Below are positions 44,868-48,560 of a DNA stretch of 64,000 bases, piece by piece. The position numbers were made by a program, and so were the translations under genes. Below the pieces are notes generated by a model that had not been told where the DNA came from, did no database searches, and worked only from the letters and a program-made list of their open reading frames with translations. Positions within the stretch are counted from its first letter, which is position 1, and every line of letters begins with the position of its first letter. The stretch is from Anaerolineae bacterium. GTDB lineage: Bacteria > Chloroflexota > Anaerolineae > Aggregatilineales > Phototrophicaceae. The stretch is taken from the NCBI GenBank assembly GCA_022826865.1, contig JAJDUC010000028.1:124001-188000 (forward strand), given 5' to 3'.

Positions 44868-45239
44868 GTGATCGGCTTGAAGAATGACCGCATAACCGAG
44901 CGCCTGGAGGCTTTGCGCGACATGACGCCCGAGCTTGAAGCGGCGGCCTTAATCGGCGTCGAAGGCCTGACCATCGCCGCGTCATCATCTGAGGAATCGG
45001 ATGACGAGCATTTAGCCGCGATGTCGGCCGCGATGTTAGCCTTGGGCGACCGCATCGCGTCCGAGCTCGGACGCGGAGAGTTGGAACAGCTCTATATCAA
45101 GGGGGACAAGGGCTACGTGCTATTGATGGGCGTAGACGAACGAGCGGTGCTGACGGCCCTGGCCAGCGCTGAGGCGAAACTGGGCCTGCTGTTCCTTGAA
45201 TTGCGCCGGGCTGTTGAGGCCGTCCGACTGCTATTGTAG
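44868..45239 (+). CDS. Roadblock/LC7-domain protein
   Basis: 123 residues forming one roadblock/LC7 domain: LEALRDMTPELEAAALIGVEGLTIA, a helix LAAMSAAMLALGDRIASELG and LYIKGDKGYVLLMGVDERAVL. In bacteria such proteins regulate small GTPases such as MglA. No GTPase gene is adjacent. Translation starts at the GTG (44868) with GGGCGG in front. It is 67 bases before pyrG on the same strand and may be co-transcribed. Confidence 0.9.
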   Translation: MIGLKNDRITERLEALRDMTPELEAAALIGVEGLTIAASSSEESDDEHLAAMSAAMLALGDRIASELGRGELEQLYIKGDKGYVLLMGVDERAVLTALASAEAKLGLLFLELRRAVEAVRLLL

Positions 45240-45306: not shown

Positions 45307-46965
45307 ATGGCAGTGAAACCCAAATACATCTTTTGCACCGGCGGTGTCGTCAGTTCGGTTGGCAAAGGGCTGACTGTCGCGGCTATCGGCCGCATTCTGA
45401 AGGCGCGCGGACTGAAGGTCGCCATACAGAAGTTGGACCCTTATCTGAATGTCGATCCCGGCACGATGAGCCCTTACCAGCATGGCGAGGTCTTCGTCAC
45501 CGCGGATGGCGCCGAAACTGACCTTGATCTGGGACATTATGAGCGCTTCACCGACGAAAATGTCAGCCGCCTCTCCAATGTGACCGCGGGCCAGGTCTAC
45601 CTCACAGTGATTGAGAAGGAACGCAAGGGCGATTATCTTGGCGGCACGATCCAGGTCGTCCCGCATATTACAAACGAAATCAAACGCTGCATCAAGCTGC
45701 TCGGTCAACAGACCTCCGCCGATGTGGTCCTCGTAGAAGTTGGCGGCACCGCGGGCGACATCGAAAGTTTGCCTTTCCTGGAGGCGCTGCGCCAATTGCG
45801 CACGGAACTCAAGCGGCGCGACACGCTGTCCGTCCATGTCACCTTTTTGCCGCATATTGGCGCGACAGACGAACTGAAGACCAAACCGACCCAGCACAGC
45901 GTTCGGGAGTTGCGTGGCATCGGCATTCAGCCGAATGTCATCATTGCCCGCAGCGATCACCCCGTCACTGAAGACATCATGAGCAAGATCGCGCTCTTCT
46001 GCGATGTCGATGAAGACGCCGTTATCCCCCTTGAGACGGTGAAAAATATCTACGCCGTGCCGCTTTCGATCGAAGAAACGGGCTTGGGAGATTTCATCCT
46101 CAATCATTTCCGGCTGGATGCCGATCCGCCCGATTTATCGGAATGGCAGGAGATTATCAGCAAGCGCCGCGAGGTCAGAGACCGGCTGCGCATCGGAATC
46201 GTCGGCAAATATGTTGAGTTGCGCGACGCTTATATGTCAGTGAAAGAATCCATTGCGCATGCCGCCATCCGGCAAAATCAGGATGTGGAGATACGTTGGA
46301 TCCATTCCGGCGAGTTGGAGAAAGGCAAACGCCTCGACGAGCTGCACGGTCTTGACGGCATCATTGTGCCCAGCGGATTTGGCTACCGCGGGATCGAAGG
46401 CAAGATCAAAGCGGCGCGCTACGCGCGTGAGAACAAGGTGCCTTATCTCGGCTTGTGCCTCGGCATGCAAGTCATGTGTATCGAATTTGCGCGCAACGTC
46501 TTGCAATTGGAGGACGCGAACAGCAGCGAATTTGACATGAGCACGCCGCATCCAGTGATTGATCTGATGGCGGAGCAACGGGCGATCACAGATATGGGCG
46601 GGACGATGCGTCTGGGCGAATATCCCTGCATTCTGCAGCCCAGGTCGCTGGCGGCGCAAGCCTACCAGGCCGATCGGATTATGGAACGACACCGGCATCG
46701 CTTCGAGTTCAATAATCACTATCGGGAGACTTTCAGCGCCAGCGGTCTCAGTTTCTCCGGATTGAGCCCGGATCGTGTGCTCGTGGAAATCGCGGAGTTG
46801 CAGGATCATCCCTTCATGCTGGGCTGCCAGTTCCATCCGGAGTTCTTGAGCCGGCCAAACCGGCCGCATCCGCTGTTTTCCGCTTTCATCGAAGCATCGA
46901 CGGAATACCGGGATGAAATCGGCAGAATCTCGGTGGAGTCGGCCTGGGGCAAAGACCAGGCTTAA
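45307..46965 (+). CDS. pyrG: CTP synthase
   Basis: Aminates UTP to CTP with ATP and glutamine. Synthase domain: KYIFCTGGVVSSVGKGLTVA (P-loop), QKLDPYLNVDPGTMSP and VEVGGTAGDIES. The glutaminase domain starts near residue 300 with RIGIVGKYVELRDAY and has the catalytic cysteine in LGLCLGMQVMC and the His/Glu pair in FHPEFLSRP. The 552 residues are full length. It is preceded by a roadblock gene and followed by an adenosine-deaminase-like gene. Confidence 0.98.
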   Translation: MAVKPKYIFCTGGVVSSVGKGLTVAAIGRILKARGLKVAIQKLDPYLNVDPGTMSPYQHGEVFVTADGAETDLDLGHYERFTDENVSRLSNVTAGQVYLTVIEKERKGDYLGGTIQVVPHITNEIKRCIKLLGQQTSADVVLVEVGGTAGDIESLPFLEALRQLRTELKRRDTLSVHVTFLPHIGATDELKTKPTQHSVRELRGIGIQPNVIIARSDHPVTEDIMSKIALFCDVDEDAVIPLETVKNIYAVPLSIEETGLGDFILNHFRLDADPPDLSEWQEIISKRREVRDRLRIGIVGKYVELRDAYMSVKESIAHAAIRQNQDVEIRWIHSGELEKGKRLDELHGLDGIIVPSGFGYRGIEGKIKAARYARENKVPYLGLCLGMQVMCIEFARNVLQLEDANSSEFDMSTPHPVIDLMAEQRAITDMGGTMRLGEYPCILQPRSLAAQAYQADRIMERHRHRFEFNNHYRETFSASGLSFSGLSPDRVLVEIAELQDHPFMLGCQFHPEFLSRPNRPHPLFSAFIEASTEYRDEIGRISVESAWGKDQA

Positions 46966-47040
46966 GCCCTCGCAGCGCCGCGGCCGGGTTAGCCGTTAGG
47001 CCTCCGAGGCCTCTAGGCGCCAAGTTAGAAGGAATCAGTT

Positions 47041-48084
47041 ATGTCCCTGAGCGAATTTGTCGCATCCCTGCCCAAAGTTGAACTCAACCTGCATCTAACC
47101 GGCGCCTTTCGCAAAGATAGCCTGCTGCTCCTGGCCGATCAAAATGCCGTGCCGTCAACTCAAGAAGACTTTCCGCACTGGCTGGGTTTGCTCGACGCGC
47201 CTGATTATGAGCAATTGGAAGAGATTGCGCGTATGGCGGGCAGTTGGGTGATGTATCCGGAAGATATCGCGCTCGTCGTTTACGATATCGGGGTCGCGCT
47301 TGCCAAGCAAAACGTGCGCTATGCGGAAATCGCGGTAGCGCCGTCGGACTTCATCGGCGCCGCTCAAATGAACTTCGATACCTTTATTGACGCGCTCAAC
47401 GATGGTCGCGACCGCGCCCTGCGCGGCTGGGGCGTAGACATGGCCTGGATTCTCTGCATCCCGCGCGACAACCCGCGCGCCGGCGACGATGTCGCGCGCT
47501 GGGCGACCGGGAGCGCCGCCGCCGCGCGCAACGTGGTCGCGATGGGTCTCACCGGGCGGGAAGACGCGCAGCCCATCGGGCAGTTCCGCCGCGCCTTCGC
47601 CACCGCGCAAAAGAAGCAAGTCCCCACTGTTGCCAATGCCGCCAGCGCCCTGGGCGCCGGCGGCATGGAGGAGGCCCTAAGCGAGCTGCAGCCGCAGCGC
47701 TTGGTCGATTCCTGGGGAATTGTGGAAGACAAGGGGCTTCTCAATCACATTGTCGAATCTGGCTTGCCGCTTGTCGTTTCGATGTCGCGGGCGCAGAGAT
47801 TGGGCATGATCAAGACGATGGGCGATTATCCGCTGAAGGCCCTGTACGAGGCGAATGTCCAGATCATGCTTTCCTCCGGCATGCCGTCGCTTTACGGGAC
47901 GACCCTGAACGATGAATATGTGGCGGCCGCGGAGGAATGCGGATTGCAAATCGATGATCTGATTTTGATCATGCGGCGCTCCATCGAAAACTCATTCCTG
48001 GATGCCGAGCGCAAAGCCGAGCTTCTGCAGCGCTTCGAATTCGATGCGAAGACCGCGCTCGCCACCTATATCGGCCGCAACTGA
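47041..48084 (+). CDS. Adenosine-deaminase-like protein lacking active-site residues
   Basis: 347 residues with clear adenosine-deaminase spacing but lost chemistry. At the start, the metal-binding HxH reads ELNLHLTG (Asn16, only His18 kept). The HAGE motif reads TVANAAS (Ala198 and Ala201 in place of metal His and catalytic Glu). The RLGHG motif reads RLVDSW (Asp223 for His). The TDDP motif reads SSGMP (Gly280 and Met281 for the two Asp). Non-catalytic landmarks such as YGTTLNDEY and SFL remain, and the frame is undamaged, so it looks like a selected pseudoenzyme. It follows pyrG by 75 bases with AAGGA before the ATG. A binding or regulatory role in nucleoside metabolism is inferred from context only. 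Confidence 0.85.
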   Translation: MSLSEFVASLPKVELNLHLTGAFRKDSLLLLADQNAVPSTQEDFPHWLGLLDAPDYEQLEEIARMAGSWVMYPEDIALVVYDIGVALAKQNVRYAEIAVAPSDFIGAAQMNFDTFIDALNDGRDRALRGWGVDMAWILCIPRDNPRAGDDVARWATGSAAAARNVVAMGLTGREDAQPIGQFRRAFATAQKKQVPTVANAASALGAGGMEEALSELQPQRLVDSWGIVEDKGLLNHIVESGLPLVVSMSRAQRLGMIKTMGDYPLKALYEANVQIMLSSGMPSLYGTTLNDEYVAAAEECGLQIDDLILIMRRSIENSFLDAERKAELLQRFEFDAKTALATYIGRN

Positions 48085-48122: not shown

Positions 48123-48560
48123 CTATTCCACCGGCGTCACCTCAATATTGCCATAGATGCTGTCGTCGATTGGCAGAGTAATTATAAGGCGTCCGCCGCT
48201 ATCCACTTTGGCGCGCGCATCCTGACCTTTCACCGGGATCGTCAACTCGACCGCGCGCGTCACCGGGCCAAAACGCCGCTCCTGCAACAGATATCGGGCG
48301 GTGGTGGGCGTGGCCTCCGGCTCGGTGCGCGCGGCGATGGTCAAGACATTGGTCTCCAAACTGATTTCGATGCTGTCCTTTATCAAGCCGTCGATGGCCT
48401 CCGTACAAATGTAGAGGTTGCCATCGGCCTCGTACATATCCAGAAGCAGTTGCTCTGCGCTGCTGGTCACGGCGCGAATGCCCTTTTCAAACTGCTTGGT
48501 AATCTGCTCGCCAAGGTTTTGGACTTCTTTCAGCGGGTCAAAGCGCGGTTCGTTCGTCAT
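48123..48560 (-). CDS. Hsp20/alpha-crystallin-family small heat-shock protein
   Basis: 145 residues. A polar N-terminal arm of about 40 residues is followed by the alpha-crystallin domain: LDMYEADGNLYICTEA, SIEISLETNVLTIAART, YLLQERRFGPVTRAVELTIPV and the family end motif AKVDSGGRLIITLPI. The C-terminal extension is short and has no clear IxI motif. Acts as an ATP-independent holdase for unfolding proteins. Divergent from pheA. Confidence 0.88.
   Translation of the reverse strand: MTNEPRFDPLKEVQNLGEQITKQFEKGIRAVTSSAEQLLLDMYEADGNLYICTEAIDGLIKDSIEISLETNVLTIAARTEPEATPTTARYLLQERRFGPVTRAVELTIPVKGQDARAKVDSGGRLIITLPIDDSIYGNIEVTPVE

Follow-up and report, generated by a model that had tools for sequence, protein, structure and literature searches.

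What becomes of an enzyme gene that stays in place behind the same neighbor after its catalytic motifs have changed? This question is raised by an open reading frame (ORF) downstream of the CTP synthase gene pyrG in an Anaerolineae genome. It lies in the window, i.e. the whole 64,000-nucleotide stretch of DNA analyzed here (contig JAJDUC010000028.1), and was described in an earlier sequence-only reading as an adenosine deaminase (ADA) homolog with nearly all catalytic residues replaced. The open-access literature searched yielded nothing relevant on ADA-family pseudoenzymes or on the function of a pyrG-ADA operon.

An ADA homolog with altered catalytic motifs

The ORF starts with ATG and encodes 347 aa. 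It matches the Pfam A_deaminase profile (PF00962, E 1.9e-47) over model positions 1-326 of 330, which bears out its description as an ADA homolog, while its score against the NCBIfam equivalog TIGR01430 is 159 bits, below the cut-off of 216.55. The AlphaFold model, for which the window protein was combined with 56 natural relatives, has a pLDDT of 95.3 and a pTM of 0.93. Among solved structures it comes nearest to ADA and related proteins (4gxw, Z 42.7), with mouse ADA (3km8) matching at Z 41.6 and an rmsd of 2.4 over 329 residues, and the mouse ADA mutants H238A, H238E, D295E and D296A are also found among its structural matches. The ADA fold is thus confidently predicted to be kept, and the full-length profile match and the same fold place the protein, by descent, in the ADA superfamily (PF00962).

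The motifs were placed by aligning the window protein, residue by residue, with intact ADAs from its order, using mouse numbering:

47041..48084, + strand: putative adenosine deaminase pseudoenzyme, 347 aa (PF00962, AlphaFold model, 82 orthologs with catalytic residues lost)
47086..47094, + strand: HxH metal motif, here N-L-H (residues 16-18; alignment)
47635..47646, + strand: HAGE motif, here N-A-A-S (residues 199-202), metal ligand His214 and catalytic Glu217 lost (alignment)
47707..47709, + strand: position of catalytic His238, here Asp223, His in none of the 82 orthologs (alignment)
47878..47883, + strand: positions of Asp295 (metal) and Asp296, here Gly280-Met281, Asp296 lost in all 82 orthologs (alignment)

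In mouse ADA, His15, His17, His214 and Asp295 are the zinc ligands and Glu217, His238 and Asp296 are catalytic. Three of the four ligands are lost in the window copy (H15 to N16, H214 to N199 and D295 to G280), with only the equivalent of His17 remaining, as H18. The catalytic residues are replaced as well (E217 to S202, H238 to D223 and D296 to M281), and the protein consequently has neither the zinc site nor the catalytic residues of an active ADA. The alignment agrees with the sequence-only reading in the changes of HxH to NLH, RLGHG to RLVDS and DDP to GMP, and in the loss of the catalytic Glu. The HAGE motif is indeed altered, but the aligned residues are NAAS, one residue on from the ANAA given earlier, and the claim that all metal ligands are gone fails for His17.

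A family-wide clade under purifying selection

Searches of related genomes identified 82 orthologs, hereafter pseudo-ADAs, from 82 species of the window's family. Both His238 and Asp296 are absent from all of them, Glu217 is kept in 14, and the full zinc set (His, His, His, Asp) is found in only four (L067, L082, L084 and L087). The catalytic-pocket positions vary widely: H15 is replaced by N, G, Y or F, H214 by Q, R, N or S, and H238 by D, G, N, E or S. The possibility that the window holds a single mutated copy among orthologs with intact motifs is thereby answered, the losses being shared. Nor have any ligands moved elsewhere in the protein: no His or Cys is conserved in half or more of the 82 orthologs, and migrated catalytic residues were rejected on this ground.

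The pseudo-ADAs form one clade (SH-aLRT 100) whose stem measures about 0.94 substitutions per site, and in a smaller, more careful tree its support is 100/100. Their lengths fall between 337 and 361 aa (median 347) and all 82 are in frame, L099 being merely truncated by a contig end. One further observation concerns L163 (JAPUDW010000090.1), a metagenome-assembled genome that is labeled Bacteroidetes but has this Chloroflexota locus in typical form, and is probably mislabeled or contaminated.

Over 17 close pairs, dN/dS of the pseudo-ADAs is 0.07-0.16, generally higher than that of the adjoining pyrG but of the same order. This somewhat elevated ratio, together with clean losses in several lineages (see below), is what might be cited for mere decay, i.e. 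an outgoing pseudogene or a single mutated copy. Decay can, however, be considered effectively refuted and is given next to no credence here: all copies are in frame at near-constant length under purifying selection, new invariant residues have arisen, and the gene persists across many genera of the family. Since purifying selection and constant length are joined by a lasting linkage to pyrG, the earlier proposal of a selected pseudoenzyme instead of a decaying gene holds, and the comparisons support a selected, family-wide pseudoenzyme that is predicted to be non-catalytic. A different picture is given by a second ADA-like stretch in a related genome (G066:C1:126966-127851), which lies in several pieces with an internal stop and resembles a decaying ADA gene, unlike the in-frame pseudo-ADAs.

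The strong selection, and the new residues that now form the majority where catalytic ones once stood, namely Met281 (58 of 82) and Asp223 (42 of 82), could also be read as signs of a repurposed enzyme performing different chemistry in the same barrel by means of other residues. Against this stand the variability of the old catalytic positions, the lack of any invariant new polar set at the barrel mouth, and the absence of a conserved His or Cys, making such an enzyme very unlikely.

When the clade profile was run against 396 sampled genomes of the class, members scored about 400 bits or more and all other sequences 292 or less, the ten best outsiders all being intact. No convergent dead ADAs were thus seen elsewhere in the class among these genomes. 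The examined related-locus matches from other phyla included no dead ADAs either, all being intact.

Linkage to pyrG and origin of the pseudo-ADA

Two genes precede the pseudo-ADA on the same strand:

44868..45239, + strand: roadblock/LC7-domain protein (PF03259, E 2.4e-17), same order in most loci
45307..46965, + strand: pyrG, CTP synthase (PF06418, E 4.2e-121, and PF00117), directly upstream of the pseudo-ADA, adjacency conserved

The placement right after pyrG noticed in the sequence-only reading (pyrG ends at 46965, the ORF starts at 47041) proved to be general: 80 of the 82 loci have pyrG immediately before the pseudo-ADA in the same orientation, and contig ends interrupt the remaining two. 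The roadblock gene is the probable first gene of a roadblock-pyrG-pseudoADA operon. This lone gene keeps its place before pyrG in most relatives, including several that have lost the pseudo-ADA. Directly downstream of the pseudo-ADA, and convergent to it, a divergent HSP20-like protein is encoded at 48123-48560 on the minus strand (PF00011, E 1.5e-4, just over the cut-off); its conservation extends from the genus to some other genera.

Intact ADAs are also found directly behind pyrG in two sister families (f3 and f8), in 14 of 14 cases and with gaps of -11 to +11 nt, while none of the other ADA loci examined had pyrG beside them. In the window, the junction (46966-47040) is wider, at about 76 nt, and any translational coupling may therefore be loosened there. 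The pseudo-ADA clade groups with the intact pyrG-linked ADAs in the smaller tree (support 92/84), which taken alone is moderate support. In addition, Y81, G84, G122 and W136 are common to both and rare in other ADAs. Because place, tree and shared residues all link the intact sister-family ADAs to the pseudo-ADAs, the pyrG-ADA pair predates the family and its ADA apparently died once, at the family's base. The comparisons hence show that this predicted pseudoenzyme arose a single time, from an ancestral pyrG-linked ADA, at the root of a Chloroflexota (Anaerolineae) family, and inherited its place behind pyrG.

A newly conserved, putative outer surface

Conservation in the clade was contrasted with that in intact ADAs, giving 27 newly conserved positions, of which 20 fall within residues 56-192 (binomial P 3e-4). 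The clade-specific residues of helices 1-4 are:

47245..47616, + strand: clade-specific conserved residues within residues 69-192, helices 1-4 (conservation contrast)

The set, made up mainly of basic residues and tryptophan, comprises W69, K89, D121, R125, R128, W130, R146, D149, R153, R184, K191 and K192, with W69, K89, D121, R128, R146, R153, R184 and K191 near-invariant in the clade. For example, W69 occurs in 82 of 82 pseudo-ADAs versus 0 of 38 intact ADAs, and R146 in 80 of 82 versus 0 of 38. On helices 1-4, the charged new residues make an angle of 111-173 degrees with the hydrophobic side of the helix that bears them and so face away from it. Helix periodicity and TIM-barrel topology together suggest a charged patch on the outward face of these helices, and judging from the topology K89, R128, R153, K191 and K192 would sit near those helix ends that are turned to the bottom of the barrel, on the other side from the old active site.

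Almost the whole new pattern is already present in the four lineages, early branches of the clade, that retain a complete zinc set. For this reason, the loss of His238 and Asp296 and the gain of the surface are placed on the stem, and zinc loss later; the zinc ligands were hence lost afterwards, repeatedly and in varied ways. Such an order of events is what would be expected if a new binding job replaced catalysis.

The surface also bears on the earlier suggestion of a nucleoside-binding job and on a reading akin to it, a metal-free nucleoside or nucleotide sensor whose old pocket would bind a purine or CTP-related ligand without turnover and signal to a neighbor such as CTP synthase. The modeled fold and barrel are intact, the gene is linked to pyrG, the equivalent of Gly184 is kept in 81 of 82 orthologs and the ribose-side Glu/Asp in 48 of 82, all of which would suit a sensor. 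Yet Gly184 may be structural, members of the window's genus have Thr in place of the ribose-side Glu, and the catalytic-pocket positions (H15, H214 and H238) vary widely, with the new conservation found on the outer helices instead. Since the pocket varies freely while the outer surface is conserved, the suggestion is weakened, and we regard a sensor as unlikely.

Gene losses and other ADAs in the genomes

In five genomes of the window's genus, as well as in G044, G042 and G060, and G049, pyrG has no ADA behind it and no remnant was detected. In loci L203-L208 and L211-L213 the pseudo-ADA is cleanly removed, pyrG being followed immediately by a convergent HSP20 or response-regulator gene. By taxonomy these look like about four separate losses, and a gene cleanly lost several times is evidently dispensable, not essential. 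We looked for residue patterns in PyrG that track loss of the pseudo-ADA and found nothing convincing: the changes are few and mostly conservative, and none is present in the genus-level losers.

A profile search of the window's own genome found the pseudo-ADA to be its only PF00962 gene. Among carriers of the same genus, 27 of 29 lack any other ADA homolog, and canonical ADA appears to be absent altogether from most genomes of the genus. Purine salvage need not hang on ADA, since genes with PF01048 (purine nucleoside phosphorylase-type) and PF02578 (YfiH/LACC-type) were found in 12 of 12 genus members tested. Outside the genus, another ADA that scores at full strength against Pfam is present in 16 of 20 sampled carriers, as would suit a pseudoenzyme-enzyme pair in which the pseudo-ADA is a partner or stabilizer of an active paralog. 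In the window's genus the pseudo-ADA is usually the sole ADA homolog and is nevertheless under selection; the role of active-ADA subunit was consequently rejected there, and as a general explanation we consider it highly improbable.

A proposed new role

The explanation that we favor, and hold to be reasonably probable, is that the pseudo-ADA is a repurposed non-catalytic TIM-barrel protein, orthologous to pyrG-linked ADAs, that would act by binding through its putative new surface. On the stem branch, where His238 and Asp296 were lost, a binding surface would have been gained on the outside of the barrel, chiefly at the end away from the old active site (the ends of helices 1-4), so that the protein may now serve as a scaffold or as a partner with a regulatory role. 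Decay of the zinc site would then have been piecemeal, proposedly because nothing depended on it.

Judging by gene order and the short or overlapping gene junctions, CTP synthase, or some other nucleotide-metabolism protein, is the likeliest partner. That CTP synthase itself is the partner is a tentative proposal, which co-variation in PyrG does not back: as PyrG shows no change that tracks loss, it is only gene order and short junctions that carry this link. Somewhat more doubtful is the specific version in which the pseudo-ADA is a dedicated regulatory or filament/scaffold subunit of CTP synthase, encoded in the same operon and bound via the outer face of helices 1-4. If true, a fold known from purine salvage would be tied to the regulation of CTP synthesis.

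Whatever the partner, the locus offers a natural record of the passage from enzyme to non-enzyme, in which one gene, in the same place behind pyrG, has its catalytic residues in sister families and is apparently dead in every member of one family. Its intermediates point to an order in which the catalytic His and Asp disappeared as the surface was gained, and the metal site was lost bit by bit afterwards. For further study, the locus provides about 80 natural variants and several separate losses. A practical consequence is that "adenosine deaminase" is probably a wrong annotation for these genes.

Comparison with known systems

The bacterial adenosine/adenine deaminases and mouse ADA (PF00962; 4gxw, 3rys and 3km8) share with the pseudo-ADAs the full-length (beta/alpha)8 fold, length, motif order and conserved non-catalytic landmarks, at structural Z scores of about 41-43. 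Unlike these enzymes, the pseudo-ADA clade lacks His238 and Asp296 throughout (82 of 82), has Glu217 in only 14 members and a complete zinc set in only four, and has a newly conserved, putatively outer surface. Closer relatives are the intact pyrG-linked ADAs (L002, L003, L005, L006, L008, L014, L113-L116 and L118-L121), which have the same place behind pyrG, carry Y81, G84, G122 and W136 and are nearest in the tree. These differ in that their catalytic residues are present, that W69, R146, R184 and K191 are absent, and that K89 and D121 are nearly always absent.

Beyond the family, pseudoenzymes are known to act e.g. as scaffolds, by allosteric control or by competition (PMC10211241). Deaminases are absent from that review, which deals with other families of enzymes. 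The likeness of the pseudo-ADAs to the pseudokinases and pseudophosphatases which it covers lies in an enzyme fold that appears to have been selected after loss of its catalytic motifs, with a likely scaffold or regulatory role.
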